Assembly (NCBI GenBank): GCA_003140315.1 | Contig: PLJS01000070.1 | Span: forward strand, 838 to 45,236 | Direction of reading: 5' to 3' | Length of the DNA: 44,399 nt | Source of the DNA: Hyphomicrobiales bacterium | GTDB taxonomy: Bacteria > Pseudomonadota > Alphaproteobacteria > Rhizobiales > Xanthobacteraceae | Shown here: piece after piece, positions 19,028 through 41,679 of the stretch | Layout of the letters: every line of letters begins with the position of its first letter | Numbering within the stretch: position 1 is the first letter of the stretch | The notes under the pieces: generated by a model | Seen by the model: the letters and a program-made list of their open reading frames with translations, nothing else | What the model was told of the DNA's origin: nothing | Database searches by the model: none | Translations under genes and position numbers: made by a program

Positions 19028-19047
19028 AGGCTGATTGCCACCGGATC

Positions 19048-22031: not shown

Positions 22032-23497
22032 CTATGCGGCGAGCTTGATGGTGATAGACTTGGACTGCGTGTAGGCCAGGAGTTCCTCCAGGCTTTCCTC
22101 GCGCCCAAGACCGGATTGCTTGTAACCCCCGAATGGGGTGCCGAGAAAATGCGAGCTCGACTGGTTGACCCAGACATAGCCGACTTGCACGCGGGCGGCG
22201 AGCCGATGGGCGACGTCGAGGCTCCGTGTCCAGATCGACGCGGTGAGGCCAACGTCCACGTCATTCACGGCACCCATGAGCTCACTTTCGTCCGTCCACT
22301 TCAGGATCGAAAGAACCGGGCCGAAGATTTCCTCGCGCGCAATACGCATCGTCGGCGTGACATCCGCGAACACGGTCGGTTCCACGAAGGCCCCATCGGC
22401 GAGCCGCGGGTCATCCGGCACTTTGCCGCCGGTAACGAGACGCGCGCCCTCGGCCAAAGCCGACTGGATGTAGTCCAGCACGCGATCCCGCTGCGCCTTG
22501 TTGACCAGGCATCCCATCGTGGTCTCGGCCTCGGTCGGGATGCCAGGCCGGAAGGCCTTCACCCGTTCGACGACGCCGGAGACCACACGGTGGTAGGCGC
22601 TCTCATGGATGAACGCTCGGCTGGTCGAGCCGCAAGACTGTCCCGCCCACGCGAAGTTCATGCCACGGACGATGCCTTCGATCGCCGCCTCGATGTCAGC
22701 ATCAGGACAGACGATCAGCGCGTTCTTGCCGCCAAGCTCGAGCATCACGGGTTTGATCGTCTCGGCGGCGCTGCGCAAGACGGCACGGCCCGTGGCCGCG
22801 CTCCCGACGAGCGAGACTTTCGCGATGCCGGGATGGCTCGCCAGCGTTGCGCCGCATTCGCGTCCGCCGGACAGGACGTTGAAGATACCGGCGGGGAAGA
22901 TGTCCGCAACCAACTCCGCCAGCCGTAGCGCCGAGAGCGGAGCCTGCTCGGACGGTTTCACGATGACGGCATTTCCTGCGGCGAGCGGTGCTGCGACCTT
23001 CATCGCGGCGAACATGATCGGATGGTTGAACGGAACGATCTTCGCGACGACGCCGAGCGGCTCGCGCACGATGTAGTTGAGCTGGCCCGCGCCAAGCGGC
23101 ACCGTCTCACCCTTCAATTCGCGTGCCAGTCCCGCGAAGTATTCGATCATGTCGGCCGCATGGCCGATGTCGCCACGAAGTTCGCGCACCGGATTGCCGC
23201 AATGGCATCCAGCAGCGCCAGCTCGTCCGTGTGTTGGCGCAAGACCGCGGCCATCTCGCGGAGCAGCTGCGCACGCTTCGCGGGAGGAAGGTCCTGCCAA
23301 TCCGGCAGCGCCCGCTTTGCGGACGTGATCGCCGCAGCGACGTCTTCGGGGCCGGCCTCGGCGACCTCTCCCAGACTTCCGCCGGTTGCGGGGTTCGTCA
23401 CCGGGAGCCGGCGTCCCGTCGCGCCGTCGTGCCAGCCGCCCGCATAGAAAAGCCCACGATTGGCGGGCAGCATGAGCTTCGACGTGCATTCGAGCAT
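22032..23497 (-). pseudogene. Aldehyde dehydrogenase, frameshifted
   Basis: An NAD(P)-dependent aldehyde dehydrogenase split between two frames. The N-terminal part (from the ATG at 23497) reads FYAGGWHDGATGRRLPV to ELALLDAIA and then goes out of frame; the C-terminal frame resumes at CGNPVRELRGDIGHAADMIE. The break is at about 23202, where two bases (AT) stand where the family normally has two residues more, equivalent to a loss of four bases. The rest is intact: FNHPIMFAA, the Glu in LELGGKNAL, the nucleophile Cys in GQSCGS, and PFGGYKQSGLGRE near the end. Repaired length would be about 490 residues. It could be a real mutation or a sequencing error. The gene lies under an operator-bearing promoter. 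Confidence 0.85.
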
Positions 23498-23540: not shown

Positions 23541-23578
23541 ATTATACGCCAAAGAATATTGTTTGACACTTATGTCAA
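23541..23578 (-). promoter_or_regulatory. Promoter and operator for the aldehyde dehydrogenase / SDR operon
   Basis: On the minus strand a perfect -10 TATAAT (23541-23546) lies 17 bases from a GTGTCA -35-like box (23564-23569). The -35 box is inside a perfect inverted repeat TTGACA-CTTA-TGTCAA (23563-23578). The repeat therefore covers the polymerase site and is a candidate TetR operator. Confidence 0.65.
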
Positions 23579-23603
23579 GATGGAGCTGCCGCCATCGGGC
23601 CTA

Positions 23604-23632
23604 TTGACAATTTCGTCAATGAAAATGCATCT
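23604..23632 (+). promoter_or_regulatory. Promoter and operator for the flavoprotein / TetR operon
   Basis: TTGACA (23604-23609) serves as a perfect -35 box, with GCATCT 17 bases downstream (23627-23632). The same hexamer starts the inverted repeat TTGACA-ATTT-CGTCAA (23604-23619; ATTGAC and GTCAAT are perfect arms). A further half-site TGTCAAGAT at 23634-23642 repeats the flank of the neighbouring operator. Confidence 0.55.
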
Positions 23633-23678
23633 CTGTCAAGATCAAGGCGTGCTCAAGCGCTATCGAAGGGAGAACGAG

Positions 23679-25373
23679 ATGCCCGAAACGGTCGAGTGCG
23701 ATGTCCTCGTGATGGGGACAGGGGCCGCCGGTTCGTCCGCGGCCATCACGGCCAAGCACAACGGCCTGGACGTCATCATCGTCGAGAAAGAGCCGGTATT
23801 CGGCGGAACGACGGTATTCTCGGGCGGTTGGCTTTGGGTTCCCTGCAGTCCGCAGGCGAAGGCCGCGGGCATCGAAGACAATCTCGACGACGTTCGCACT
23901 TACGTGCGCCAGGAAGCGGGAAATCGCTACGACGAAGAGCGGATGGAGGCGTTTCTCGAGAACATCCCCAAAATGGTGAATTTCTTCGAGAACAATACGT
24001 CCGTGCATTTCTTCGTCGGCCCCCAATTGCCGGATTATCACGGCGACAAGGTGGGCTCGCGCCCCGGCGGCCGCTCGATTTGCGCAAATCCGATCAACGG
24101 ACGCGAACTCGGCGCAAGCCTGAAGCGGTTGCGGGCGCCGCGGCGCGAGCTTCTCGTGTTCGGCCTCACCATCGCGTCCGGTCCCGACATGAAGCACTTC
24201 TTCGCGGCCGGCCGCTCCGTTCGCTCGGCGGCGTACGTCTTCAGGCGTTTGCTGCTCTCGTTTTGGGATCGTGCGTATTACGGCCGCGATCTGCAATTCG
24301 GAAACGGTGCCGCGCTCGCCGCGCGCATGCTGAAATCGGTCGACGAGAAGAAGATTCCCGTCTGGTACTCATCACCGGCCAAGAAGATGATCGAGAAGGA
24401 CGGAAAGATCGTCGGGGCCATCGTCGAGCGCGACGGAAAGCCGGTCGAGGTGCGCGCGCGGCGCGGCGTGGTGATCGCGACCGGCGGCTTTGCCGGCAAC
24501 ATGGAACGCCGGCGCGACCTGTTCCCGCATCATCCTTCGCCGACGCAGCACTACTCCCTCGCACCGGAGACCAACACCGGCGACGGCCTTACGCTCGGCG
24601 AGAGCGTAGGTGGCGTGGTGGATAGCTCGCTGCTCAATCCGGCGGCCTGGATGCCCGTGTCGCGCGTACCCTATCCGGATGGGACGACCGGTACGTTCAT
24701 GCATCTCTTCGACCGCGGAAAGCCGGGCGTCATCGCGCTCAAATCGGATGGCACGCGCTTCGTGAACGAAAGCGCGTCCTATGAAGACTTCGTCCCGGCG
24801 CTGTTTCGCTCGTACCAGCCGGGCGAGAGCGCCTATTGCTATCTGATCGCCGACCATACGGCCGTTCGGCGATATGGGCTCGGCTTCGCGAAGCCGGCCC
24901 CGATACCGATCGGCCGACACATCCGGTCCGGATACATTCTGCGGGCTGACACGCTCGAAGAACTTGCCGGGAAGATGGGCATGGATCCCGCGGCCGTCAC
25001 CGCCAGCGTGCGACGGTTCAACGAGAATGCGCGACAGGGGAAGGACCCCGATTTCGGCAAGGGATCGGTGCCGTACAACCGCTATCTCGGCGATCCCGAT
25101 CACAAGCCGAACCCCTGCATTGGGCCGATCGAGACGGCGCCGTTCTACGCCGTCAAGGTCGTGCCGGGAGACATCGGCACGTTTGCGGGATTGCGGACGG
25201 ATCGCTACGCCCGCGTTCTCGACCAGAAGGGTGCACCGATCGAAGGCCTCTATGCGGTCGGGGCGGACAATGCGAGTGTCTTTGGCGGCGCATATCCGGG
25301 CGGCGGCTCGACACTCGGACCGGCGGTGACATTCGGGTATATCGCGGGCCAGCATCTCGCGGGACACGCATGA
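23679..25373 (+). CDS. FAD-dependent 3-ketosteroid dehydrogenase-like protein (type II)
   Basis: A 564-residue flavoprotein of the FAD_binding_2 family, subgroup near 3-oxosteroid 1-dehydrogenase, which introduces a double bond next to a ring ketone. FAD fold: CDVLVMGTGAAGSSAAI (residues about 7-23). Family marks: GGTTVFSGGWLWVPCSP, FFENNTSVHF, RRGVVIATGGFAGN, and the long C-terminal signature PCIGPIETAPFYAV ... GDIGTFAGL ... GLYAVGADNAS. AGGGAG precedes the ATG. It is first of three genes with an enoyl reductase and a TetR regulator, behind an operator. Its nearest relative in the window is the gene at 42810. Steroid specificity is not proven; a cyclic ketone or CoA thioester is possible. 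Confidence 0.88.
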   Translation: MPETVECDVLVMGTGAAGSSAAITAKHNGLDVIIVEKEPVFGGTTVFSGGWLWVPCSPQAKAAGIEDNLDDVRTYVRQEAGNRYDEERMEAFLENIPKMVNFFENNTSVHFFVGPQLPDYHGDKVGSRPGGRSICANPINGRELGASLKRLRAPRRELLVFGLTIASGPDMKHFFAAGRSVRSAAYVFRRLLLSFWDRAYYGRDLQFGNGAALAARMLKSVDEKKIPVWYSSPAKKMIEKDGKIVGAIVERDGKPVEVRARRGVVIATGGFAGNMERRRDLFPHHPSPTQHYSLAPETNTGDGLTLGESVGGVVDSSLLNPAAWMPVSRVPYPDGTTGTFMHLFDRGKPGVIALKSDGTRFVNESASYEDFVPALFRSYQPGESAYCYLIADHTAVRRYGLGFAKPAPIPIGRHIRSGYILRADTLEELAGKMGMDPAAVTASVRRFNENARQGKDPDFGKGSVPYNRYLGDPDHKPNPCIGPIETAPFYAVKVVPGDIGTFAGLRTDRYARVLDQKGAPIEGLYAVGADNASVFGGAYPGGGSTLGPAVTFGYIAGQHLAGHA

Positions 25374-25404
25374 ACGGCGTCGCGTTCCACCGAGGCGACG
25401 CATC

Positions 25405-26382
25405 ATGAAGATCGTCGCGGTGAGTGAGTTCGGCGATCCGCTGCGCGTCGCGCGGTGCGTCGAGGTATCTGAGCCAGGCGAGCCCGGATCGGATGAGGTT
25501 CTGGTCCAGACCCTAGCATTTCCGATCCACCCGGCCGACCTGATGCTGATCCGCGGCAGCTATTTGCGGTTGCCGCCTCTGCCGTTCGTGCCCGGCATCG
25601 AGGCGGCTTGCCGGATTCTGCAAGTCGGAAGCGCCGTACGCGACCTCAAGCCGGGCGACCACGTCCTTTCGCTCCAGCGGCAGACCTGGACGGAGCGCAG
25701 ACTGCTCAAGAGTGACGAAGTCGTTTCACTCGGAAACGACATTGATCCATTGCAACTCGCGATGCTGTACCTCAATCCGCTCACCGCCTGGAGCATGTTG
25801 TCGAGGCCCGAAATCGCCGAAGCCAGGGGCGAGGGGGAAAAGTGGATCGTTCAGAACGCCAGCAACTCGTCGGTCGGCCTCTGGATCAACCGGCTGGCGC
25901 CGCACTTTCAGGTGAAGGTGGCGAATGTCGTGCGTCGGGCGGATGCGTTAAGTGCCGGCGACAACGTGATCGTGGACGGCCCTTCGCTGGCGCAGCGGTT
26001 GAAGTCGATCAGCGGGGGCGGGAGAGTCGTCGCGGCGCTAGACGCGGTCAGCGGCAGCGCGACCGGACGGCTGGCTGAATGCGTCATGCCGGGCGGCACT
26101 GTTTTCATATACGGAAACCTCGCGAACGAGCCGGTCATCGTGCCGAACGAGGAATACCTGTTTCGTGGAATTCACGTGACCGGATTTTCCGTCACCCGAA
26201 CAACTACTGGTATGAGCAAGGAAAATCTGGTTAAGCCTTTGGAGCTGTTCGGGCGTGAAGTTGTTCAGGGCTTTCGGCAGGAGATCGAGGCAACGTATCG
26301 GCTCGCCGACATCGCATCGGCCGTGGAACACGCGACACGCGAACGGCGCAAAGGCAAGATCTTGGTTACGGTTGGGCAGTAA
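25405..26382 (+). CDS. MDR-type oxidoreductase (2-enoyl reductase, MECR-like)
   Basis: A 325-residue medium-chain dehydrogenase/reductase without the zinc-binding cysteines, in the quinone reductase / enoyl thioester reductase branch. The segment PIHPADLMLIRGSY near residue 40, the NPLTAWSML motif near 125, and QNASNSSVGLWINRLA match mitochondrial-type trans-2-enoyl-CoA reductase. It would use NADPH to reduce an activated double bond. It lies 31 bases after the flavoprotein gene, which by contrast would make such a double bond, so the pair may work on different positions of the same molecule. Confidence 0.87.
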   Translation: MKIVAVSEFGDPLRVARCVEVSEPGEPGSDEVLVQTLAFPIHPADLMLIRGSYLRLPPLPFVPGIEAACRILQVGSAVRDLKPGDHVLSLQRQTWTERRLLKSDEVVSLGNDIDPLQLAMLYLNPLTAWSMLSRPEIAEARGEGEKWIVQNASNSSVGLWINRLAPHFQVKVANVVRRADALSAGDNVIVDGPSLAQRLKSISGGGRVVAALDAVSGSATGRLAECVMPGGTVFIYGNLANEPVIVPNEEYLFRGIHVTGFSVTRTTTGMSKENLVKPLELFGREVVQGFRQEIEATYRLADIASAVEHATRERRKGKILVTVGQ

Positions 26383-26444
26383 CGGGTGATTCTCAGGGTC
26401 TCGAGCGCTTCTGCGCCTTCGGGACCGGACCGACAGTGGCGGCG

Positions 26445-27140
26445 ATGGCGAATACGAAAATCAAAAACGAAGCATTGAGATCGAGCATCCTTGAGGCAGC
26501 CTCAAACCTGTTCATCGAGAAGGGGCTTGCAGGAACGAAGATCCAGGACATCGCGGGCGCGCTCGGCATCACGCGCACGAACGTCTACTACTATTACAAG
26601 AACAAGGAAGACATTCTCGAAAAGCTCACGCTGGATGTGACGAACCTCGCGAAGGAAGTCACGACTGCGGCGATCGGCGCGAAGGATCAAGATCCCCCAG
26701 CGATGCTGCGCTCTCTGGTCATCATGTATTCGAGTTTCGTTCTGAAGCAGCCGATATTGTTTCGCGTATCCGAGCGCAACGAGCAAAACCTCAAGGCGAA
26801 GGATCGCAGCAAGGTGACGAGAGCGCGCCGTTCGGTGCTGGACAATTTCCGCGCCGTGATCGAGCGCGGCGTCGTGTCCGGACACTTCCGCGGTATCGAT
26901 CCGGGTGTAACGGCCTTTTCGATCATCGGCATCTGCAACTGGTCGGCGTGGTGGTTTAGGCCCGGCGGCAAATACAAGGCGCAGGAGGTGGCCGAACAGA
27001 TCGCTGATCTTGTCGCGCATGCGGTGGAGCAGCCCGACCGTCAGTTGCGTGCTCGAAACAACGGCCGCGAGATCGTGAAGCGGATTCGCGGCGAGCTTGA
27101 ATATCTGGAGAACTTGATTCCCGAGAGGCCGGGCCGTTAG
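26445..27140 (+). CDS. TetR/AcrR family transcriptional regulator
   Basis: A 231-residue TetR-family regulator. The N-terminal DNA-binding domain is clear: ILEAASNLFIEKGLAGTKIQDIAGALGITRTNVYYYYKNKEDIL (about residues 15-58 in pieces), with the recognition helix ITRTNVYYYY. The C-terminal domain would bind a ligand such as an acyl-CoA; it resembles the KstR2/FadR-like group in layout, and the extra C-terminal tail is basic. The ATG at 26445 is taken over a GTG at 26436. As third gene of an operon that begins behind a TTGACA-N4-TGTCAA repeat it is likely autoregulated, and it is the best candidate to bind the four such repeats in the window. Confidence 0.9.
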   Translation: MANTKIKNEALRSSILEAASNLFIEKGLAGTKIQDIAGALGITRTNVYYYYKNKEDILEKLTLDVTNLAKEVTTAAIGAKDQDPPAMLRSLVIMYSSFVLKQPILFRVSERNEQNLKAKDRSKVTRARRSVLDNFRAVIERGVVSGHFRGIDPGVTAFSIIGICNWSAWWFRPGGKYKAQEVAEQIADLVAHAVEQPDRQLRARNNGREIVKRIRGELEYLENLIPERPGR

Positions 27141-27163
27141 CCTTGTCCGCGAGGCAATGAGGG

Positions 27164-27874
27164 TTACGTCGAGAACTCGGCAAGCATATTCTTCATGCGC
27201 GGGTTCTGGCTCATCTCCGCGCTCGTACCCGACGCCGTGATGTGGCCGCTCTCCATCAGATAGGCGCGATCCGCGTTCTCGAGCGCCAGCGAGACGTCCT
27301 GCTCCACCAGCAAGACGCTCATGCCGCCGCGCCGCAGCGTGTTGATGACCTCGACAATGCGGATGACCATCATGGGCGCGAGCCCCACCGAGGGCTCATC
27401 GAGGAGCAGCAGGCGCGGTCGCGCCATCAGCGCCCGCGCAATCGCGAGCATCTGTTGCTCGCCACCGGACATGCGGTCTGCGCGCTGGCTCTCGCGTTCG
27501 GCCAGAATCGGAAACAGCTCGAAAACATAGTCCATTTGCCGGCCAACTTCAGCGTGGCTGCTTAGCGTGTAGGCGCCAAGGACGAGGTTCTGCCGAACAG
27601 TCATCGGTGCGAAGAGCTGGCGTCCTTCGGGGACCTGGACCATCCCAAGCTTCATGATTTGGTCCGGTCGCAGCGCGTTCAGGTCGACGTCATTGAAGGT
27701 CAGCGAGCCGGCATTGATCCGGCGCAGCCCGGATAGCGTGCGCAGCAACGTCGACTTCCCGGCGCCATTGAGCCCCAGCAGCGTCACCACCTCCGCCGCG
27801 CCGACCTCGATCGTCACGCCGTGAAGGATCTCCGACCTGCCATAGCCAGAGTGAATGTCTTTGGCTTTCAGCAT
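27164..27874 (-). CDS. LivF-type ABC transporter ATPase, transporter B
   Basis: A 236-residue ATPase of the HAAT family. Walker A GLNGAGKST (34-42), the Q-loop VPEGRQ, signature MSGGEQQ, Walker B LLLLDEPSVGLAP and switch VEQDVSLAL are all present. Its ATG overlaps the LivG-type stop by one base. It ends the operon of transporter B and converges with the TetR gene 23 bases away; no terminator is visible. Sequence differs clearly from the transporter A ATPase, so the two systems are not a recent duplication. Confidence 0.92.
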   Translation of the reverse strand: MLKAKDIHSGYGRSEILHGVTIEVGAAEVVTLLGLNGAGKSTLLRTLSGLRRINAGSLTFNDVDLNALRPDQIMKLGMVQVPEGRQLFAPMTVRQNLVLGAYTLSSHAEVGRQMDYVFELFPILAERESQRADRMSGGEQQMLAIARALMARPRLLLLDEPSVGLAPMMVIRIVEVINTLRRGGMSVLLVEQDVSLALENADRAYLMESGHITASGTSAEMSQNPRMKNMLAEFST

Positions 27875-28638
27875 CAGCGGCCCTGGCCCAGATAAGCCTG
27901 CCGCACCTGCGGGTCTTGCGCGATCGTCGCGAACGGGCCATCCGCGATCTTGCGTCCGAGATGCAGAACGACGCAGCGGTCGCAAACCGCTTCGACCAGC
28001 CGCATGTTGTGCTCGACCAGGAGCACGGTCGTGCCTTCATCACGGATGCGACGGATAAGCGCCTGAAGCTGGCGTGCCTCTTCGGTATTCAACCCGGCGG
28101 CCGGCTCGTCGAGCAGCAGCAGCGCAGGCTCCGAGGCCAGGGCGCGCGCGATCTCCACCAGCCGCTGCTGCCCGTAGGAGAGCGTGTCGCAGTCGGCGCT
28201 GCTATCGATGTGCGACAGGCCGACTAGATCAAGCTTGTCGCGCGCATGCGCGGCGAATTCCTGCTCCTCGACGCCGACTGAGCGAAGGCCCGCCGCGATC
28301 TTGATCAGGTTGATGCTGCCGAGGCGATGCCGGCCCGACATCACATTGCCGAGCACCGGGAGTCCCGCAATCAGTTTGACGAGCTGAAACGTGCGCGCGA
28401 TGCCCTTGCGCGCCCGCGCATAGGCACGCGTGCGCGTGATCTCTTCATCGTCGAACCAGATTCTCCCTTTCCTGCCGTCATCGAGGCCTGACAGGAGATT
28501 GACCAGCGTCGATTTGCCGGCGCCGTTCGGCCCGATCAGACCGAGAATCTCACCTTTGCTTTGTTCGAACGTAACGTCCGATACCGCATCGAGGCGGCCG
28601 AACGATCGGCCGACATTGTCAACGCGAAGGAGCGGCAT
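27874..28638 (-). CDS. LivG-type ABC transporter ATPase, transporter B
   Basis: A 254-residue ATPase partner with Walker A GPNGAGKST (36-44), family signature LSYGQQR, Walker B LLLLDEPAAGLN and the H-loop VEHNMRLV. The start has a good AGGAG ribosome site that lies inside the upstream LivM-type gene; the two overlap by 20 bases. The C-terminal extension of LivG proteins (DGPFATIAQDPQVRQAYLG) is complete. Confidence 0.92.
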   Translation of the reverse strand: MPLLRVDNVGRSFGRLDAVSDVTFEQSKGEILGLIGPNGAGKSTLVNLLSGLDDGRKGRIWFDDEEITRTRAYARARKGIARTFQLVKLIAGLPVLGNVMSGRHRLGSINLIKIAAGLRSVGVEEQEFAAHARDKLDLVGLSHIDSSADCDTLSYGQQRLVEIARALASEPALLLLDEPAAGLNTEEARQLQALIRRIRDEGTTVLLVEHNMRLVEAVCDRCVVLHLGRKIADGPFATIAQDPQVRQAYLGQGR

Positions 28639-29590
28639 TGACCGGCTCCTTGCGCCAGCTCGAGGACGCGCTGCTGATCAGTCCGACGATGCCTTGCGGC
28701 ATGAACCGGAGAACGATCAGCAGAATGAATCCGTAGACCAGGACATGATATTCTTGGAACCGATGAAGCGCCTCGGGCAGCAGCGTCAGAATGATCGCGC
28801 CGACCACCGGGCCCAAAGGTGTGCCGCTTCCTCCGAGGACGACCATCACGACCGGTGAGATCGAAAGGCCAAGTCCGAAGAGAGCGGGCGTCACGAACAG
28901 ATTTTGCTGGGCGTAGAGCGCGCCGGCCAACGCGGCAAGCGCTCCGCTCAGTGCAAAGATCGCGAGTTTCGTGAGGACCGTGTTGACGCCGAGCGCCTGA
29001 GCGACGGCTTCATCCTCGCGAATAATCTGCAATGCCCGGCCGTATCGCGAGCGCACGAGATTGACGGAAAGCACGAACGCGATCGCCGTAGCGAACCAAA
29101 CGACGTAATAGTAGTTCCGGCTGAGCCGGATGCCGAACAGGCGCGCTGGATCGACCGAAATCCCCCACGGCCCGCCGGTGAGGTCGACCCACTGCAGCGC
29201 AAGCACCTGAATTGCAATGCCGAACGCAAGCGTGCCGAGCGCCAGATAGTGGCCGCGCAGACGCAAGAGCGGCAGCCCGATCAGCCCCGCGATCAGGGCC
29301 CCGAAAAGGATCGCCACGAGCAGCCCCGGAATAAGGCCGGTATAGGGTTGGACGAGCGCGAACGCGTAGCCGCCGATCGCGTAAAAGCCCGCATGGCCAA
29401 AGGAGATCTGGCCGCAATATCCGTACACGAGGTTGAGGCTGATCGCGAAGATGATCGAGATCGCGGCCGAGTTCATCACCTCGATCGGATAGTTTCCGAT
29501 CTTGAGGAACGGAACCCCCAACAGCGCCAATCCGATGAGCGTCCATACGAGGAACGGCCGCGTTCGGCGCGGCGATGCGGCCGCGCTCAT
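28619..29590 (-). CDS. LivM-type permease, transporter B
   Basis: A 323-residue inner-membrane permease with about eight to nine hydrophobic segments and the conserved loop VYGYCGQISFGHAGFYAIGGY near residue 55. The coupling region is VVLGGSGTPLGPVVGA. The ATG at 29590 overlaps the LivH-type stop by 4 bases (ATGA). It ends in a Ser/Lys-rich tail that overlaps the LivG start. Together with the LivH-type protein it forms the channel. Confidence 0.9.
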   Translation of the reverse strand: MSAAASPRRTRPFLVWTLIGLALLGVPFLKIGNYPIEVMNSAAISIIFAISLNLVYGYCGQISFGHAGFYAIGGYAFALVQPYTGLIPGLLVAILFGALIAGLIGLPLLRLRGHYLALGTLAFGIAIQVLALQWVDLTGGPWGISVDPARLFGIRLSRNYYYVVWFATAIAFVLSVNLVRSRYGRALQIIREDEAVAQALGVNTVLTKLAIFALSGALAALAGALYAQQNLFVTPALFGLGLSISPVVMVVLGGSGTPLGPVVGAIILTLLPEALHRFQEYHVLVYGFILLIVLRFMPQGIVGLISSASSSWRKEPVNAAPSR

Positions 29591-30456
29591 CGATTGTCTC
29601 CAAACAACCCGTTCGGACGGGCCAGCAGGACAGTCATCATGAGGCCGAGCGTGATCACTTCGTTCAGGGACGAGGACACGTAGCCGGAAATCAGCGTCTC
29701 GCACACGCCGACGACGAGACCTCCGAGCAGCGCGAACGACGGATTGCTCATGCCGCCGACGATCGATGCGATGAACCCCTTCACCGCCATGTTGATGCCC
29801 ATGTAGGGCGAAGCCGCGATGATCGGTGCGATCAGTGCGCCGGCGAGCGTGGCGATGGCTGCACTCAAGCCGAACGTCATGATCATCACGCTTGAAACGC
29901 GGATACCGACGAGCTGCGCGGCGATCGGGTTGTAGCCGGTCGCCAGGATGGTCATGCCGATGGTTGTGCGCGTCAGGAACAGCCAAAGCGCGATCGCCAC
30001 GACAGCGGTGACGACGATGACGGCGAGACTCTGCGGAAGGATGCTGAACTCGCCGAGCCGCAACGCGTCATTGCCGAACTGGCTTGGAATGCCCAGCTGA
30101 CGCACGCCGGCGACGATCGCCGCGAGATTGCTGATGATGATCGCGGCGGCGATGGTCGCCATCACCTGATTGATCAGCGGCGCGCCCGAGCGCTGCATTG
30201 GGGCGACGAAGATTTGCTGGTAGAGGGCTCCGACGATCGCGCCGCACAGAATGATGAGCGGGAATGCGACATAACCGGGGAGGGCGAGCGTGCCAAAGAA
30301 CAGGACGGCAAACATTGCGCCGAGCATGACGAATTCGCCCTGCCCGAAATTTGGCAGCTTGGTCGCATTATAGATGAGCGTGAAGGTGAGACCGATCAGT
30401 CCATAGATCGAGCCGGTCGTCGCGCCCGCGATCAGGAGTTGGACGAAGTCGGACAT
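29587..30456 (-). CDS. LivH-type permease, transporter B
   Basis: A 289-residue inner-membrane permease. The family loop IYNATKLPNFGQGEFVMLGAMF is near residue 28 and the C-terminal coupling region is GFIASIVGGMSNPSFALLGG. The end ARPNGLFGDNR is typical of LivH. A weak ribosome site and a 69-base gap with a GC hairpin separate it from the binding-protein gene, which may allow the binding protein to be made in excess. Confidence 0.9.
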   Translation of the reverse strand: MSDFVQLLIAGATTGSIYGLIGLTFTLIYNATKLPNFGQGEFVMLGAMFAVLFFGTLALPGYVAFPLIILCGAIVGALYQQIFVAPMQRSGAPLINQVMATIAAAIIISNLAAIVAGVRQLGIPSQFGNDALRLGEFSILPQSLAVIVVTAVVAIALWLFLTRTTIGMTILATGYNPIAAQLVGIRVSSVMIMTFGLSAAIATLAGALIAPIIAASPYMGINMAVKGFIASIVGGMSNPSFALLGGLVVGVCETLISGYVSSSLNEVITLGLMMTVLLARPNGLFGDNR

Positions 30457-30489
30457 AAATCCGTGACGCCAGCCGATGACGCGAGTTGG

Positions 30490-30514
30490 GCCCGGCTGCT
30501 GCTGGCCGCCGGGC
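30490..30514 (-). other. Intercistronic hairpin after the binding-protein gene
   Basis: A perfect 7-bp stem GCCCGGC / GCCGGGC with an 11-base loop lies 12 bases after the stop of the transporter B binding-protein gene and before the permease gene. No T-run follows on the minus strand, so it is probably an mRNA-stabilising stem. Confidence 0.4.
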
Positions 30515-30525
30515 GATCCTTGATA

Positions 30526-31677
30526 TCACTTCTTGTAATCGGTGTATTTGCCGTCTTTCACCTGACGGATCACCACGACCGACTCGACCGAGCCCGTCGG
30601 ACCATCGTGCTTCTGCGCCGTGAAGGAATAAGAGTGACCGGGACCGCCCGCGATTGCCGGGAAATTCGAGATTCCCTCGAGCGCATCGCGGAAACCCTTG
30701 CGATCGAGCGTTTTGGCGGTCTTGACCGCCTGCGCAAGGATCCCGGCGCCGTCATAGCCGATGGCCGGGAATGCATTGATGGGATCATAGTTGAACCGCG
30801 CCTTGAACTTCTTCGCGAAATCCTGCGATTCGGGACGGGTCTCGGTGTAGTTGTCGGTGAAGACAAACCCTTCGACCGCCGGGCCGCCGATATCGAGGAA
30901 GACCGGCATGGCGAGGCCGCGATTGCCGATCACCGGCGCACTGAATCCGATCTGCTTCATCGTCTTGCCGAAGAGTGCCGCCTCGGGGCCGTATCCGTAG
31001 AAAACGACGGCATCGGGCGCCGCGCGGCGGATGTTGAGCGATTGCGCGGTCACGTCGGTCGCGTTAACGATGACGTTCTCATCCGAAACGATCTCGATAC
31101 CGAGCCCGTCGAGCTTCGGCTTGAGATAGGCGATCGCTTCTTTGCCGACCGTGCCTGAGTCTTTGAGGACGGCGATCCGCTTCGCGCCACTGTCCTTCAG
31201 AAAAGTCACGATGCGGGCGATCTCGTCGTCGAAGTTCGCGCTGACACGGAAGGTCCAGGGATTGAGCGGCCGGGTGACCACCGGCGCCTGCGCCAGAAAC
31301 ACCAGGTGGGGAATTTCCTGATCCTGCGTGATCTTCAGCGTCGCGAGCGTTGCGCCCGTGGTCGTCGCCGACGCAATTGCGAGCACGCCGTCCGAGTCGA
31401 TCATCTTGCGCACGCCGCTCACCGCGCGGGCCGGGTTCGACTCATCGTCGAAAATGACAAGTTCGATCTTCTTTCCGTTCACGCCGCCGGCCGCATTGAG
31501 CGCGTCGATCATCAGCAGCGCGCCGTCGCGCGTCGGGCGTCCGAGATCGGCTGCCGGCCCAGTGAGCGCGGCGACGAAGCCGATCTTGACGGTGTCCTGC
31601 GCGAACGATGGCGCAGCCAGCGAAAGCGCGGCCGCGCCCAGCAAGCAGCTCAGCATGATCCGTCTGGTGAAGCGCAT
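30526..31677 (-). CDS. Periplasmic binding protein, LIV type (transporter B)
   Basis: A 383-residue PBP type 1 solute-binding protein. Signal peptide residues 1-26 (twin Arg start, then LLGAAALSLAAPSFAQ), then VKIGFVAALTGPAADLGRP, the typical family opening. Later landmarks are NPWTFRVSANFDDE, VFYGYGPEAALFG and FPAIGYDGAGILAQA. GGGAGG precedes the ATG. It begins the five-gene operon for transporter B behind its own promoter with a candidate TetR operator. The ligand is unknown; related proteins in aromatic-degrading Rhizobiales bind aromatic acids. Confidence 0.92.
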   Translation of the reverse strand: MRFTRRIMLSCLLGAAALSLAAPSFAQDTVKIGFVAALTGPAADLGRPTRDGALLMIDALNAAGGVNGKKIELVIFDDESNPARAVSGVRKMIDSDGVLAIASATTTGATLATLKITQDQEIPHLVFLAQAPVVTRPLNPWTFRVSANFDDEIARIVTFLKDSGAKRIAVLKDSGTVGKEAIAYLKPKLDGLGIEIVSDENVIVNATDVTAQSLNIRRAAPDAVVFYGYGPEAALFGKTMKQIGFSAPVIGNRGLAMPVFLDIGGPAVEGFVFTDNYTETRPESQDFAKKFKARFNYDPINAFPAIGYDGAGILAQAVKTAKTLDRKGFRDALEGISNFPAIAGGPGHSYSFTAQKHDGPTGSVESVVVIRQVKDGKYTDYKK

Positions 31678-31724
31678 GACGTCCTCCCTGGCCGAAACTT
31701 CGGTTTCTTCAGTCTGCGGATTTT

Positions 31725-31762
31725 ATTTTACACTAAAGGCACAAAGTCGACAAAGATGTCAA
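31725..31762 (-). promoter_or_regulatory. Promoter and operator for transporter B
   Basis: On the minus strand TAAAAT (31725-31730) lies 17 bases from TTGTCG (31748-31753). The -35-like box is inside TCGACA-AAGA-TGTCAA (31747-31762), a near-perfect copy of the repeat found at 23563 and 36050. The spacing of repeat to -10 box (16 bases) is the same as at 23541-23578. Confidence 0.6.
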
Positions 31763-31800
31763 CAAACGGGCGACGACCGCGCCCTATGGTTGGAAGCTTC

Positions 31801-32712
31801 CTATCGCCCGGCCACCCTTAGCTGCGCGTAGCGGTCGATCATCATCTTCAGGCCGGCGTCCAAAGGTGTGCGCGTGATGTTGGTGATCGCGGCGCGGATG
31901 TCGTTCAGCTTTGCGGGCATCTGGATCGGAAGGAGCGGGCCTGCGGCGCTCAGCCGTGCGCCGGCCACATGGCGCTGGATGATCGTGACGATGTCTTCAA
32001 CCAGGGCAGTCGACCCGGGAATGTCGAAGACCGAAGCGCCGCTGCGCCCTTTGCCAAGCTCCGCGGCCGCCTCGACGAACGCGGAGGCGACATCGTCGAC
32101 GTAGACGAAGTCCGCCGGACCGGTGAACGGGATGACGTATTCGCGCTGCTCCACGGCGGCACGGCAGGCGAGCGCCGGCCCCGCCGTCAGGCCGACTTCC
32201 CGGCCCATGCCGTAGACGACATAGGGCCGCAGCCCGATGCTGGCGACGCGGTGGTCCGTCCAATAAGCGCGTGCGGAGCCCTCACCGGCAAGCTTGAACG
32301 CGCCGTAGTGCGTATCGGGGTGTGGATGGTCGCGCAGATCGGACGCATAAACGGCCGCGCTGCTCATGTAGAGCACGCCCTTCAGTCCGTGCCGCCGTGC
32401 GGCTTCGAACATGTTCAGCGTTCCGATCACATTGACCCCCGCGGCGCGGATCGGATCGGCGGCACAGGCGGGGGTCAGCAGGGCGGCGAGATGGATGATC
32501 GCGTCGCACCCCTTGACCGCATCCATCACGGCAGGTCCGTCGGATACGCTGCCGACTCGCCATTCGAGCCGTCGATCGGATTCCGACTTCGGTTCAAGCA
32601 GGGGATTCTTGGCAGCGACGTCGAGAACGCGCACGCTGTCATCGCGAGCGAGCAATCGGCGGATGATCGACGCGCCGATGAAGCCCGCTCCGCCCGTCAG
32701 CAAGATGCGCAT
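31801..32712 (-). CDS. NAD-dependent epimerase/dehydratase family protein
   Basis: A 303-residue extended SDR. The N-terminal cofactor motif TGGAGFIG is at residues 6-13, with VLDVAAKNP at the end of strand 2. The catalytic set is MSSAAVY followed by Y-x3-K in HYGAFK. A downstream DFVYVDDVASAFVEAA segment is typical. The ATG at 32712 is preferred to a TTG at 32718. Such proteins act on sugars but also on ring alcohols and ketones. It is last in a minus-strand group with a SnoaL-like gene, a binding protein and a flavoprotein, so a catabolic redox step is likelier than sugar metabolism; that is an inference. Confidence 0.85.
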   Translation of the reverse strand: MRILLTGGAGFIGASIIRRLLARDDSVRVLDVAAKNPLLEPKSESDRRLEWRVGSVSDGPAVMDAVKGCDAIIHLAALLTPACAADPIRAAGVNVIGTLNMFEAARRHGLKGVLYMSSAAVYASDLRDHPHPDTHYGAFKLAGEGSARAYWTDHRVASIGLRPYVVYGMGREVGLTAGPALACRAAVEQREYVIPFTGPADFVYVDDVASAFVEAAAELGKGRSGASVFDIPGSTALVEDIVTIIQRHVAGARLSAAGPLLPIQMPAKLNDIRAAITNITRTPLDAGLKMMIDRYAQLRVAGR

Positions 32713-32721
32713 GATCAAAGC

Positions 32722-33297
32722 CTATGAAAGCGCCGCGATATCCGCGCGCATGGAGTACACTGCATCCTCACGATCCCGCCTCGTCCAGGCCCATGATGGA
32801 TTTTCCGCCATTCCGACGAACGGAGCGGCATTGATCGACTCGAACACGACAATACGCCGCGCGGTCTTCCACTCCCGGGAGCGGCGCTCGAACAAATCCA
32901 CATAGCGGCCCAGCATCTTGATTTCGATCGCGGCCTGCGGATCGGCAGCACCACCACCCAGCAACATCTTCAATGACTCGCTTGCCGCGGGCCCCATCCT
33001 CTGGGAGTTCGAAAAGTAGGTTTCGACGAAAGCCCTATCCGGCCCGAAGAACTCGATCAGGCAGTTGCCCAGAAAGTGCATTGAGCGATCGATCGCCGCA
33101 TGCCGGCGGCTGACCCATTCGATGAATCCATCGACGCCGCCTTTGTAGTCGCCGTGATCGTCCCACGCGTCGGCGTGATAGGTCGAGCGAACGAGCTCCC
33201 AATCGCGCCGATCGACGCCGCGCGCGAAACGGCACAAGGCGTCGCGAATGCGTTCACGGTCCAAAAGGAAAGCGGTATCTGAGCGAGCGTTGTCCAA
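32722..33297 (-). CDS. SnoaL-like / NTF2-fold protein
   Basis: A 191-residue protein with an NTF2-like (SnoaL_4) fold: DRERIRDALCRFARGVDRRDW near residue 12, the YHADAWDDHGDYKGG turn, then HFLGNCLIEFFGPDRAFVETYF. Members act as small isomerases, hydratases or dioxygenase-like beta subunits. The TTG at 33297 was chosen because AAAGGA lies about 8 bases upstream and it clears the preceding gene; an ATG at 33357 would overlap that gene by 25 bases. It is followed after 9 bases by the epimerase gene. The reaction cannot be told from sequence. Confidence 0.78.
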   Translation of the reverse strand: MDNARSDTAFLLDRERIRDALCRFARGVDRRDWELVRSTYHADAWDDHGDYKGGVDGFIEWVSRRHAAIDRSMHFLGNCLIEFFGPDRAFVETYFSNSQRMGPAASESLKMLLGGGAADPQAAIEIKMLGRYVDLFERRSREWKTARRIVVFESINAAPFVGMAENPSWAWTRRDREDAVYSMRADIAALS

Positions 33298-33332
33298 AGT
33301 GCCGATCCTTTCTTTCGCGAAGTGCCGCAATG

Positions 33333-34550
33333 CTACTTGGCGGTGACAAAGGGACATTCACTCTCGGCGACCGGACGCGGCGCTGCATCCTCCGCCGACA
33401 GAGCCTGTACGACTTTCAAATAGTCCCAATCATACTTGCTCTCTCCCGGTGTCTTGACTTCGTAGACCGTTCGCTCGCGCAGCACGCTGCCGTTCTCGCG
33501 TAGCTTGCCGTTCTGCGTCATAAAATCATTGATCGGAATCTCGCGCATCTTCCCGATGACCTTCTCTGCATCCTTCGTTCCGGCGCCATTCACGGCTTTG
33601 AAGTAATGCATGAGCGACGTGTACACGCCGGCCTGCGAGTCGGTCGGCATCTTCTTCATCTTGTCGAAGAAGCGGCGGCTGAAGGCCCGCGTCCCATCGT
33701 TGGCGTCCCAATAGAACGGACTGCCGAAGCGCACGCCCTTCGCGGTCTTGAGTCCGAGCGCGTGAATATCCGTGATGTAGATGATCGGCACCGCAATCAC
33801 CTGGCCGCCGGCCGTGATGCCGAACTCGTTGGCCTGTTTGATCGTATTGATCATGTCATTGCCGACATTTGCGAGGCCGATCACCTTGGCGTGCGACGCC
33901 TGAGCGGCCAGCAGAAACGATGCGAAATCGTGCGTATTCACAGGATGCCGGACGGAGCCGATCACAGTCCCGCCCGCGGCCCTCACGAAGGCGCTTGTGT
34001 CAGCCTGCAGAGCGTGGCCCCCGGCATAGTCCGCCGTGATGAAGAACCAGGTATCGCCGCCGGCGCGGACCGTCCCGGTCGTCGCCGCCTTGGCGTAGGT
34101 GTAGGTGTCCATCGTCCATGTCATGCCGGTCGGCGAGCAACTCTTGCCGGTCAACACGGAGCTGCCGGCCGCCACAATGCTGATCTTTTGTCGCTCGCGC
34201 GCGATGTCCTGCACCGCCAGACCCACCGCCGAGTTGACCATGTCGGCGATCACGTCGACGCCATCGGCGTCGAGCCACCTGCGCGCGATCCCGGCGGCTA
34301 CATCGGGCTTGTTGAGATGATCCGCCGACACCACTTCGATCGCCATGTTCGGGAATAGCGCTTTTGCGTCCTCCACGGCGAGTTGCGCGGCCGTCAGCGA
34401 GCCCGGCCCGTAGGCATCCGCATAAGGTCCCGACATGTCGCTTAGGATTCCGATCTTCACGGAGATCGGTGCGTTCTGCGCGTGCGCCGGGGCCGCGACC
34501 GCGAAGGCAAACAGCGCGGCGATCAGCGGTCGCCATGAAGCCCGGATCAT
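33333..34550 (-). CDS. LIV-type periplasmic binding protein, orphan (copy 1)
   Basis: A 405-residue PBP type 1 protein without adjacent permease genes. Signal peptide 1-24 (RPLIAALFAFAVAAPAHAQ), then VKIGILSDMSGPYADAYGPG. Striking conserved stretches shared with the copy at 36144 are CSPTG, TWTMDTYTY, DTWFFIT-DYAGGH, DIHALGL, INDFMTQNGKLRENGSV. GGGAGA precedes the ATG. It follows the flavoprotein at 34596-35981 by 45 bases. It may feed transporter A or B or an unlinked permease; that is inference. Confidence 0.9.
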   Translation of the reverse strand: MIRASWRPLIAALFAFAVAAPAHAQNAPISVKIGILSDMSGPYADAYGPGSLTAAQLAVEDAKALFPNMAIEVVSADHLNKPDVAAGIARRWLDADGVDVIADMVNSAVGLAVQDIARERQKISIVAAGSSVLTGKSCSPTGMTWTMDTYTYAKAATTGTVRAGGDTWFFITADYAGGHALQADTSAFVRAAGGTVIGSVRHPVNTHDFASFLLAAQASHAKVIGLANVGNDMINTIKQANEFGITAGGQVIAVPIIYITDIHALGLKTAKGVRFGSPFYWDANDGTRAFSRRFFDKMKKMPTDSQAGVYTSLMHYFKAVNGAGTKDAEKVIGKMREIPINDFMTQNGKLRENGSVLRERTVYEVKTPGESKYDWDYLKVVQALSAEDAAPRPVAESECPFVTAK

Positions 34551-34595
34551 GTTTATCTCCCAATTCTTGCGCCGAAGCGACGCGCGTTGATCCAT

Positions 34596-35981
34596 TCAAC
34601 TGTTGGACATGGCGTGCCGGGCGGCCGCCTCGCCCGCGATACGGCCGAACACCGTGTTGTTCGAAAGCGACGCGCCGCCCGCCATGTAGCGCGCCGGCAA
34701 GACACTTGCGGTTTCGCCGGCCGCGAAGAGGCCGCTGATCGGACGATCCGCCTCGTTGAGCACATGCGTGTGCCGGTCGATGCGCAGGCCGGTTGCGGTG
34801 AGTGAAATCAGGCCAGGACGAATACGCCGTGCGTAGAACGGCGGCTTGCGGATCGGCTTGAGGTGGGACGGATCCTTGAAGAACATCGTGTCCACGCCGG
34901 CGTCGCAATCGGCATTGTAGTTCTCGACCGTCGTCGCGAGCGTCGAAGCCTTGATGCCGACGTTCTCGGCCAGTTCCTCGATCGTGTTTCCCTGCACGAT
35001 CTTGCCTTCCTTGATGAACTCGGCGAGGCGATCCGCCGTCCAGCTCGGCGCCAATGGCTTGTAGGTGACGATGACCTTGGCGGCCGCGCGCGCCGCTTCA
35101 TCGAAGATGACGAAGGCTTCCTTACCCACCTGTTTGAGGATGACACCGGACATGACGGCGTAAGCGCCGGTCTCGCGGATGAACCGCCGCCCGTCCCGGT
35201 TGACATAGATCAGCCAGCCGGGAAGGTAGGAGTCGAGTTCCTTGACCATTTGGGGGGACATCTCGAGCAGTCCCTGGTCGAAACCCGTCAGATCCGCGCC
35301 GACGGACTTGCCGAGTGTCAGCCCGTCGCCGCGTGCGTGCGGCGTTCCGATGTACCAAAGGCTCTCGCACGCGGATGCTTCGGGATAGTAGCGCGCGAGC
35401 ATCTCGGAATTGTTGCCGAACCCGCCGGTCGCGATCACCACAGCGCCGCTGCGGACTTGTTCGCCGTCGACGTCGATTCCGCAGACGTGGCCGTCTCCGT
35501 CCGTCAGCAGCTTGCGCACACGCGTATTGAGGGAAACCGTTGCGCCGGCGAGGCTTGCCGCTTGGTCGAGCGCCTGGATGATCTCGACGCCGTTGTTGGC
35601 TGCACGATGCCCACGCGCCACCGTGTCGACTCCTGCGACATAGAGATCCTCGGGGCGAAACTCGACACCGAGCGAGATGAGCCACTCAACCGCGTCAGCG
35701 CTGCGGTCGCATAGCGTTCGCAGGAGAGACGGCTGCGCGTTGTAGGCGTTCAACGCCATGCAGTAGTGAAACATGGCATCAGGATTGTCATCGATGCCCT
35801 TCGCGCGCTGCACGCTCGTTCCAGCGGCGTAGAGGACGCCCGTCGCCAAGCGGCTCGAGCCGCCCACTTGCTTGTCGGAATCGAGGATCAGGACGCGAGC
35901 ACCTTGGCGCGCCGCGGTCACTGCGGCGCTCAACCCCGCGCCACCAGCTCCCACGACGATTACATCGAAGTCTCGCTCCAT
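34596..35981 (-). CDS. FAD-dependent dehydrogenase (flavocytochrome c / ketosteroid dehydrogenase-like)
   Basis: A 461-residue flavoprotein of the FAD_binding_2 family and a lineage different from the type I and II proteins elsewhere in the window. The FAD fold is FDVIVVGAGGAGLSAAVTAA (residues about 4-24), then KQVGGSSRLATG, AVVIATGGFGNN, VNRDGRRFIRE, and the C-terminal LTATGLRIDRHTHVLN ... GLFAAGETASVLPARYMAGG. The ATG at 35981 has a strong GGGAGGG ribosome site. It has no signal peptide. It heads a four-gene minus-strand operon with a binding protein, a SnoaL-like gene and an epimerase. The substrate is unknown. Confidence 0.88.
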   Translation of the reverse strand: MERDFDVIVVGAGGAGLSAAVTAARQGARVLILDSDKQVGGSSRLATGVLYAAGTSVQRAKGIDDNPDAMFHYCMALNAYNAQPSLLRTLCDRSADAVEWLISLGVEFRPEDLYVAGVDTVARGHRAANNGVEIIQALDQAASLAGATVSLNTRVRKLLTDGDGHVCGIDVDGEQVRSGAVVIATGGFGNNSEMLARYYPEASACESLWYIGTPHARGDGLTLGKSVGADLTGFDQGLLEMSPQMVKELDSYLPGWLIYVNRDGRRFIRETGAYAVMSGVILKQVGKEAFVIFDEAARAAAKVIVTYKPLAPSWTADRLAEFIKEGKIVQGNTIEELAENVGIKASTLATTVENYNADCDAGVDTMFFKDPSHLKPIRKPPFYARRIRPGLISLTATGLRIDRHTHVLNEADRPISGLFAAGETASVLPARYMAGGASLSNNTVFGRIAGEAAARHAMSNS

Positions 35982-36036
35982 CGAAGCCCTCCCGAATTTG
36001 CTTTTTGGTCTTGGCGTCAAATGACGGCGGCGCCGC

Positions 36037-36078
36037 ATTATTAGCCGTGTTGACAACAATGTCAAAAATGGTTCATCT
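36037..36078. promoter_or_regulatory. Divergent promoter with a shared operator
   Basis: A perfect inverted repeat TTGACA-ACAA-TGTCAA lies at 36050-36065. Its two halves act as -35 boxes for both strands. On the minus strand TTGACA (36060-36065) is 17 bases from AATAAT (36037-36042). On the plus strand TTGACA (36050-36055) is 17 bases from TCATCT (36073-36078). A regulator bound here would control both modules at once. Confidence 0.7.
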
Positions 36079-36143: not shown

Positions 36144-37343
36144 ATGCGCTTGCTGACCGCCGTCTTCTGCCTGCTGATGGCCGCGGCGAATGCCCGCGCC
36201 GAGCCTCTCGCCGTCAAAGTCGGTGTTCTGACCGACATGACGGGCTTCCTCTCCGAGGGCACCGGCCCTGGATCGGCGGCCGCGGCAGAACTCGCCGCCG
36301 AAGATGCGCGCAGGCTTTACCCGAACCTGAAAATCGAGATCATTTCAGCTGACCATCAGAACAAGGCCGACATCGGCAGCGCGACCGCACGCCGCTGGTT
36401 CGAAGTCGAGAAGGTCGACGCGATCATCGATCTCACGAATTCCGCGGTCGGAATTGCGGTGCAGGACATCGGCCGCACGCTCGGCAAGCTGACGATCAGC
36501 ACAGTAGGAACGTCGTTGCTGACCGAGAAATATTGCTCTCCGACGGGCATCCAGTGGACGATGGACACCTACACCTACTCGAAAGCCGTGACATCGGGTC
36601 TGATGAAGAGCGGGGCCGATACGTGGTTCTTCATCACAGTCGATTACGCTGGCGGACACGGGCTTGAAGAGTCCATGAGCTCGTTCGTGAAGGCGGCGGG
36701 CGGCAAGGTTCTCGGCGCGGTTCGTCACCCTTCGGGTGCGAGTGATTTCGGCTCGTTCCTGCTTCAGGCGCAGGCGTCGAAGGCCAAGGTCATCGGCCTC
36801 GCCAATGCGGGCGGGGACACGATCAACACCATCAAGCAGGCGCAAGAGTTCGGAATCGTCAAAGGCGGGCAGCTGATCGCCGTCCCGACGTTCTTCCTCA
36901 CCGACATCCATGCGCTCGGTCTGCAGACCGCGCAGGGTGTGCGTTTCGCGAGTCCATTCTACTGGGACATGAACGACGACACCCGGGCATGGTCAAAGCG
37001 CTTCTTCGATCGCATGAAGAAGATGCCGGCCCATCCGCAGGCCGGCGTCTACACGGCGCTGATGCACTATTTCAAAGCCGTCAACGCGACGCACAGTACC
37101 GACGCCAAGACTGTGATCGCGAAGATGCGTGAGCTTCCGATCAATGATTTTATGACGCAGAACGGTAAGCTCCGCGAGAACGGGAGCGTGGTGCGCCAGC
37201 GCCTGCTGCTGGAGGTCAAGACGCCGGCGGAAAGCAAATATCCGTGGGACTACGCCAAGATTGTGCAGACGATGACGCCGGAGGAGGCCGCGCCGAAGCC
37301 GTTGTCTGAGACCGGCTGCAATCTCGTTGCGAACCAGAACTAG
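36144..37343 (+). CDS. LIV-type periplasmic binding protein, orphan (copy 2)
   Basis: A 399-residue PBP type 1 protein, a clear paralogue of the gene at 33333 over its whole length (well over half of positions look identical by eye). Signal peptide residues 1-20 (FCLLMAAANARAEP), then VKVGVLTDMTGFLSEG. A strong GGAGGA ribosome site lies 6 bases before the ATG. It begins a plus-strand operon with a flavoprotein and two MmgE/PrpD proteins. No permease gene is adjacent. Two diverged copies on either side of one operator suggest binding of two related ligands. Confidence 0.9.
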   Translation: MRLLTAVFCLLMAAANARAEPLAVKVGVLTDMTGFLSEGTGPGSAAAAELAAEDARRLYPNLKIEIISADHQNKADIGSATARRWFEVEKVDAIIDLTNSAVGIAVQDIGRTLGKLTISTVGTSLLTEKYCSPTGIQWTMDTYTYSKAVTSGLMKSGADTWFFITVDYAGGHGLEESMSSFVKAAGGKVLGAVRHPSGASDFGSFLLQAQASKAKVIGLANAGGDTINTIKQAQEFGIVKGGQLIAVPTFFLTDIHALGLQTAQGVRFASPFYWDMNDDTRAWSKRFFDRMKKMPAHPQAGVYTALMHYFKAVNATHSTDAKTVIAKMRELPINDFMTQNGKLRENGSVVRQRLLLEVKTPAESKYPWDYAKIVQTMTPEEAAPKPLSETGCNLVANQN

Positions 37344-37372
37344 CGCTGTCGATAGCTTTGAGGAATCCCGCA

Positions 37373-40202: not shown

Positions 40203-40217
40203 CGCAGCGGAGACACG

Positions 40218-41597: not shown

Positions 41598-41665
41598 GTC
41601 GTATCTCCTGCGCCCATGCAAACGTCTCGCAAAGGGCTGCTTCCAAGGTGCGGCTTGAATGTCGA

Positions 41666-41679
41666 AAAGGCATGCCTTT
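41666..41679. promoter_or_regulatory. Perfect 14-bp palindrome before the PaaX-like gene
   Basis: AAAGGCATGCCTTT is a perfect dyad in the gap after the PrpD operon. If the regulator starts at 41752 or 41761 it lies in its leader and is a candidate operator. It is unlike the TTGACA repeat. Confidence 0.4.

Follow-up and report, generated by a model that had tools for sequence, protein, structure and literature searches.

Four copies of a 16-bp inverted repeat, TTGACA-N4-TGTCAA, are found in a 44,399-nucleotide stretch of DNA from a Hyphomicrobiales bacterium (contig PLJS01000070.1 of assembly GCA_003140315.1; hereafter the window), and the question raised by this locus is which protein recognizes them and which genes it controls. 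Our analysis indicates that TTGAC(A/G)-N4-(T/C)GTCAA is very probably the operator recognised by a TetR-family protein whose gene lies at positions 26445-27140 and which would act as the repressor of a catabolic regulon. The operator is common to what look like five operons. Control of this kind is very well known; what the analysis adds is a conserved operator for a TetR clade in which no equivalog cut-off is passed. With a DNA motif assigned to this clade in dozens of proteobacterial genomes, their regulons become computable; in the source genome an importer, extra binding proteins and several oxidoreductases would be tied to one switch, which offers a handle for finding the substrate.

The original prediction had placed four dyads with a 4-base spacer, here termed O1 to O4, in gaps upstream of genes, and all four were found at those positions (Table 1). 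With up to two mismatches allowed, O1-O4 are the sole matches to TTGACA-N4-TGTCAA across the window, and in 100 dinucleotide shuffles of its sequence the matches averaged 0.67, with a single shuffle reaching four. The sites are spread over three gaps, all of which lie between genes with Pfam matches after the start codons were set, so that the upstream placement was borne out with the reset starts. The starts used were 23679 for the flavin adenine dinucleotide (FAD) gene (+), 23473 or 23489 for the aldehyde dehydrogenase gene (-; our own reading of the sequence), 31677 for a binding protein (-), 35981 for a second flavoprotein gene (-) and 36144 for another binding protein (+). O1 and O2 share the gap between the aldehyde dehydrogenase and FAD genes, O3 precedes the binding protein starting at 31677, and O4 lies in the divergent gap between 35981 and 36144, where the program-made open reading frame 34596-36065 overlaps it solely through an over-long TTG start. 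No dyad match was observed in the divergent gap 14473-14703 or in the gap before the last FAD gene.

The source genome comprises 6,072,974 bases in 342 contigs and is 95% complete. TTGACA-N4-TGTCAA with at most one mismatch was found at six places genome-wide, and four of these are O1-O4, both perfect copies among them; the reversed control pattern was found at one place. The scan that had been put forward as a check on the regulon therefore shows matches concentrated in the gaps of the window. The exact core TTGAC-N6-GTCAA occurs six times in the genome, three of them inside the window. By our own arithmetic the chance of four of six places falling in 44.4 kb is about 4e-8, a figure that is limited because the pattern was itself derived from O1-O4, and the independent evidence is comparative.

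A species-wide scan (one genome per species, 84,980 species) returned 204 stretches encoding a TetR homologue, of which the best 80 loci (34-51% identity) were kept. Judged by their titles these are mostly Burkholderiales, together with five Azospirillum, five actinomycetes and a few other alphaproteobacterial metagenome-assembled genomes, and three of them lie on contigs also found within the window's own family. We ranked 4096 hexamer dyads de novo at 11 spacings (0-10) in the 400 bp upstream and 250 bp downstream of each tetR match. The top seven dyads were all shifts of one sequence, among them TTTGAC-N6-GTCAAA (47/80 loci), TTGACG-N4-CGTCAA (38/80) and TTGACA-N4-TGTCAA (27/80); the best unrelated dyad, CTGCGC-N10-GCGCAG, was found in 20/80 loci and the median at spacing 4 was 0. 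Exact TTGAC-N6-GTCAA was observed 45 times in the 51.5 kb near tetR (31/80 loci) versus 14 times in 1.50 Mb farther off, and seven scrambled dyads had no copy near tetR in the 80 loci.

A site with at most one mismatch adjoins tetR in 59 of the 80 loci. When the TetR proteins were clustered at 70% identity, 13 of 16 clusters carried a site, as compared to 0-1 for eight scrambled controls. Twenty-five more distant TetR loci contain no exact copy and three one-mismatch copies in 21.0 kb, versus 45 and 57 in 66.2 kb of the 80 loci. Conservation extends beyond the scored core, with A/T at both flanking positions in 92-93% of the sites and A/G at position 6 in 91%. The same sites thus stand beside TetR homologues in other genomes, as the original prediction had asked of related genomes, and its core claim of one regulon that would be bound by TetR 26445 is supported by this conservation together with the concentration in the source genome.

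A 20-position model was built on other organisms: it draws on the tetR-adjacent sites of the 80 loci and on no site of the source genome. Its training sites were selected to fit TTGAC-N6-GTCAA with one mismatch or fewer, as the window had suggested; the de novo ranking recovered the dyad independently of that selection. The model ranks O4, O1, O2 and O3 first to fourth in the window, followed by an in-gene match of 13.65 bits. Sixty simulated windows gave a mean of 0.08 matches of at least 14 bits and a top single score of 18.3, which three of the window sites exceed.

Within the window's own family (198 genomes), 27 TetR matches were found at E-values of 1e-20 or below and, besides the window's own, four reach at least 33% identity. 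Exact sites lie on the short tetR contig in three of these genomes (2/8 in G004, 1/7 in G098 and 2/6 in G011; the contigs are loci L078, L076 and L108 of the 80), and in a fourth (G071) one of six lies directly 3' of tetR. An order-wide search at E-values of 1e-30 or below found the TetR in 2/397 genomes, the source included, and the second locus (L038) has no site with at most one mismatch in its 3.7 kb.

Several observations weigh against the assignment. The 80 loci are phylogenetically uneven. Ten relatives show no genome-wide enrichment of the dyad, with 4-18 exact copies versus 5-27 for the reversed control among the matches listed, and six TetR-less family genomes, two of the same genus, hold 1-5 copies versus 3-12 for the control; the enrichment is local to the genes of this TetR and not genome-wide. 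Apart from the FAD gene in two Variovorax loci, the window genes shared with the TetR neighbourhoods belong to common transporter and dehydrogenase families only. Promoter-like matches were not found for the plus-strand operons in the O1/O2 and O4 gaps. O3 is near background, since the parts of the loci far from tetR yield roughly one match of at least 14 bits in every 44 kb; some of these far matches may be true operators. Judged by the model scores against the simulated windows and the far parts, O1, O2 and O4 are secure and O3 is a probable site.

Furthermore, 21 of the 80 loci have no site with at most one mismatch within 420 bp upstream or 250 bp downstream of tetR. Eight of these have a site elsewhere in the locus: in L080, L082, L083, L085, L086 and L091, tetR closes the cluster and the site is found 6-8 kb away, ahead of the opening gene, and in L103 and L108 the sites are farther upstream of tetR. 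The 13 siteless loci consist of eight from Cupriavidus/Caballeronia, with two-mismatch sites only, one 3.6 kb contig and four from Pseudonocardia/Amycolatopsis. The recognition helix was observed to be RPNLYNY in the latter four and R[TPS][AN]xY[YH]Y in the others; an Actinomadura homologue with helix RPALYYY does have a site.

The promoter scan gave one sigma-70-like match per gap, each on the minus strand with a 17-base spacer and with a -35 box that overlaps O1, O3 or O4 (Table 1). As TTGACA is the sigma-70 -35 consensus and facing promoters make palindromes, the dyads could in principle be a product of chance or of promoters, and the parity with the reversed control in the relatives would agree with this. 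We consider such an origin to be of almost negligible probability, as the dyad is rare in the source genome, promoters would not gather the full dyad beside one TetR subfamily, and neither the 25 more distant TetR loci nor the FAD homologues in seven other genomes have an exact copy.

Table 1. Proposed operators, promoter-like matches and genes of the window.
Feature	Position	Strand	Remarks
Operator O1, TTGACACTTATGTCAA	23563-23578		Perfect dyad, 0 mismatches; CTTA spacer; 22.7 bits
Operator O2, TTGACAATTTCGTCAA	23604-23619		1 mismatch; ATTT spacer; 21.8 bits; starts 41 bp past the O1 start
Probable operator O3, TCGACAAAGATGTCAA	31747-31762		1 mismatch; AAGA spacer; 14.3 bits, weakest of the four
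Operator O4, TTGACAACAATGTCAA	36050-36065		0 mismatches; ACAA spacer; divergent gap; 23.3 bits, best of the window
Promoter-like GTGTCA-N17-TATAAT	23541-23569	-	-35 inside O1; towards aldehyde/short-chain dehydrogenase genes; 10/12 matches, shuffles mean 0.2
Promoter-like TTGTCG-N17-TAAAAT	31725-31753	-	-35 inside O3; towards binding protein/transporter operon; 9/12 matches, shuffles mean 0.1
Promoter-like TTGACA-N17-AATAAT	36037-36065	-	-35 is an arm of O4; towards FAD gene 35981; 11/12 matches, shuffles mean 0.2
TetR-family regulator, TetR_N and TetR_C_24	26445-27140	+	Proposed binder; third gene of the FAD/MDR/TetR operon
FAD_binding_2 dehydrogenase	23679-25373	+	NF004789 above cut-off; heads the tetR operon
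Medium-chain (MDR)/zinc-type dehydrogenase	25405-26382	+	Quinone-reductase-like
Aldehyde dehydrogenase	22032-23489	-	Profile positions 78-461
Short-chain dehydrogenase	21237-22010	-
Periplasmic binding protein	30526-31677	-	Behind O3
Branched-chain-amino-acid-type ATP-binding cassette (ABC) transporter	27164-30456	-	Two permeases and two ATPases
FAD_binding_2 flavoprotein	34596-35981	-	First gene left of O4
Binding protein, SnoaL-like protein, epimerase-type dehydrogenase	31801-34595	-	Probably same operon as 34596-35981
Binding protein, FAD flavoprotein, two MmgE/PrpD proteins	36144-41597	+	Right of O4
PaaX-type regulator	41659-42663	+	Rival binder; end of the O4 plus-strand operon; absent from the original prediction

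Under the TetR assignment, a TetR dimer would bind directly to each copy of the dyad and, because O1, O3 and O4 cover the -35 elements of the minus-strand promoters, RNA polymerase is predicted to be blocked there. Repression through -35 coverage is the simplest reading of these arrangements. The plus-strand operons facing the other way are probably repressed from the same gaps, and as one of them has tetR for its last gene, tetR would be autoregulated; control of these operons is proposed from adjacency because all promoter-like matches are on the minus strand. Thus the control of operons claimed in the original prediction gains backing from -35 overlap for the minus-strand operons and stays with adjacency for those on the plus strand. 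A ligand, perhaps a coenzyme A (CoA) thioester of the imported compound, would free TetR from the DNA. Its release is expected to turn on jointly the branched-chain-type ABC transporter, two extra binding proteins, three FAD dehydrogenases, the MDR, the aldehyde dehydrogenase and the short-chain dehydrogenases, which would then serve a common substrate.

We noticed that operators often occur in pairs in the relatives, where many starts are 20-21 or 30-31 bp apart and others 65-190 bp. Since the 20-21 and 30-31 bp spacings, and the 41 bp between O1 and O2, are near whole helical turns (about two, three or, in the window, four), two dimers would sit on one face of the DNA.

The window TetR is a family member by both domains, with an N-terminal TetR_N helix-turn-helix (PF00440; E-value 8.5e-14, 51.5 bits versus a cut-off of 24) and an all-helical C-terminal ligand/dimer domain (PF17932; E-value 8.1e-26), and no NCBIfam equivalog cut-off is passed; its best NCBIfam match, NF050111 (SACE_7040-type), scores 77.5 bits, below the cut-off of 250. 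The AlphaFold2 model has a mean predicted local distance difference test score of 88, and its structure matches, which span residues 7-198, include PfmR, KstR2, AibR and MbdR. An uncharacterised Rhodococcus protein (3him, Z 25.1) is the top-ranked fold match above PfmR of Thermus thermophilus (PDB 3vpr; Z 23.1, root-mean-square deviation (rmsd) 2.4, 188 aligned, 30% identity), which is also the best PDB sequence match (E-value 3.6e-26); the PfmR operator differs from the dyad. KstR2 (PDB 4w97/4w1u, Z 21.2/19.6) and AibR (5k7h, Z 20.5; according to its entry title solved with isovaleryl-CoA) share 21-24% identity with the model. Both are CoA-thioester-sensing TetR repressors and their operators also differ from the dyad.

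MbdR of Azoarcus sp. CIB is alike in fold (Z 17.7, rmsd 3.0, 182 aligned), with 16% identity in the structural alignment. It is a TetR repressor of 3-methylbenzoate degradation that is released by 3-methylbenzoyl-CoA (PMC4424350). As in the arrangement proposed here, a lone TetR repressor serves a number of palindromic operators within one catabolic cluster, including the promoter of an ABC transporter/CoA ligase operon, and the operators overlap sigma-70 promoter elements, but the MbdR operator is ATAC-N10-GTAT and not TTGAC-N6-GTCAA (PMC4424350). No named regulator with this operator was recognised in the open-licence literature searched, including PMC9736018, PMC3535384, PMC12016517 and PMC5343134. 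Since the search was confined to open-licence papers, the motif may possibly have been published already.

The sites could alternatively be bound by a regulator encoded elsewhere, such as a RutR-like TetR, an FNR-like or a MerR/LiuR-like protein, with the window TetR as a bystander. The RutR box, TTGACCA-N2-TGGTCAA, has the half-site TTGAC as well, and at least ten other places in the genome match the RutR/TetR model. The E. coli RutR operator is described as a palindrome of about 16 bp, which is alike in length (PMC10891134). The window TetR itself matches RutR weakly (39.7 bits versus the equivalog cut-off of 368 of TIGR03613) and no place in the source genome passes that cut-off, so RutR identity was rejected; no search was aimed at FNR-like or LiuR-like proteins. 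Position 6 would also set the sites apart from a RutR box with C there, as C was observed in 1% of the sites and A/G in 91%. As the dyad was recovered de novo beside homologues of the window TetR in many genera, we regard a distant binder as very unlikely.

Among the scanned open reading frames of the window, two regulators have Pfam matches, the TetR protein and the PaaX-type protein. The original prediction placed the sole TetR gene in one of the proposed operons and had overlooked the PaaX-type gene in another candidate operon. PaaX-family proteins control catabolic genes, and the gene for this one lies on the plus strand beyond O4, in that candidate operon, so it could be the binder of O1-O4. 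We found no match to it at E-values of 1e-40 or below in 197 other family genomes. In addition, a search of 86 TetR loci, two of which are shorter stretches of contigs already represented in the 80, gave no PaaX homologue at an E-value of 1e-15 or below and 35% identity, yet most of these loci have the dyad, and the E. coli PaaX consensus differs from it. A PaaX regulon was rejected on the grounds of co-occurrence in these loci and the family genomes, and PaaX as the binder of O1-O4 is a highly improbable reading.

In favour of the TetR assignment, Variovorax loci L077 and L103 carry a 53% identical homologue of the 23679 gene that points away from a SnoaL-like gene and tetR, and the site lies in the gap that separates them. 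The site might instead follow the FAD gene. However, no exact site was observed in the flanks (about 1.5 kb) of the seven other FAD homologues, which were found in 289 genomes of the class and have 46-53% identity; in one of them a one-mismatch copy falls within the matched gene (L164:2231). A site tied to the FAD gene and not to TetR was therefore rejected. The SnoaL-like proteins of the window and L077 show no significant similarity. NF004789, the type of the 23679 gene, is related to 4-oxocyclohexene-carboxylate and ketosteroid dehydrogenases. A second FAD dehydrogenase at 42810-44399 (+) is 49% identical to the 23679 protein and has no site with at most one mismatch in its locus. For the binding protein behind O3, no match at E-values of 1e-60 or below was found in 197 other family genomes. 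The N-terminal part of the aldehyde dehydrogenase (profile positions 1-77) is in a different frame (23150-23473, -), reflecting either a sequencing error or a broken gene.

Protein clusters shared by the TetR neighbourhoods were observed in 88 compared loci: AMP-binding ligase (71), alpha/beta-hydrolase-like (71), FAD monooxygenase (57), VOC (55), arylmalonate-decarboxylase/EutA-like (34), TctC-type binding protein (30) and thioesterase (19). Because the fold resembles CoA-linked repressors and a CoA ligase and similar genes occur in the TetR neighbourhoods, a CoA thioester is our best guess for the ligand, with perhaps even chances of being right. The window has a CoA ligase gene of its own at 19024-20718. 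The window regulon differs from the neighbour clusters in having an ABC importer, two more binding proteins, three FAD dehydrogenases, an MDR, an aldehyde dehydrogenase, short-chain dehydrogenases and MmgE/PrpD proteins. It is an evenly balanced proposition that the TetR subfamily has stayed together with its operator, TTGACR-N4-YGTCAA, as a movable unit in Alpha- and Betaproteobacteria and in one or more actinomycetes, with closely spaced operator pairs on one DNA face, and that the controlled pathway has been swapped. Most of the collected loci have an aryl-CoA-type cluster, made up of a CoA ligase, a salicylyl-CoA 5-hydroxylase-like monooxygenase, a VOC protein and in some cases a thioesterase, and the window has the flavoprotein/ABC-importer regulon.

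One such neighbouring cluster (L126:10815-18155), which is uncharacterised, has counterparts in many of L039-L118 adjoining TetR homologues. It encodes alpha/beta-hydrolase-like, VOC, CoA ligase, thioesterase, salicylyl-CoA 5-hydroxylase-like monooxygenase and EutA/arylmalonate-decarboxylase-like proteins. The monooxygenase matches the salicylyl-CoA 5-hydroxylase model in its N-terminal half at 389 bits, below the cut-off of 1078.

Outside the window, a further high-scoring site of the source genome, TTGACGCTTGCGTCAA (G000:C46:9840-9855; L119, L122:4841-4856), reaches 21.0 bits. It is located in a gap flanked by an ABC exporter gene and a LysR gene, with an NMT1-type transporter adjoining, and is possibly a further regulon member. 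Other places outside the window include L004 (18.5 bits, but inside an open reading frame), L120 (10.2 bits) and L003 (at most 10 bits). Related dyads, TTGACTAAATAGTCAA and its variants, were found clustered in two other genomes, at G580:C1:1460914-1472078 (about 11 kb) and G071:C1:2951163-2956604 (about 5 kb), and are perhaps the operators of another regulator.

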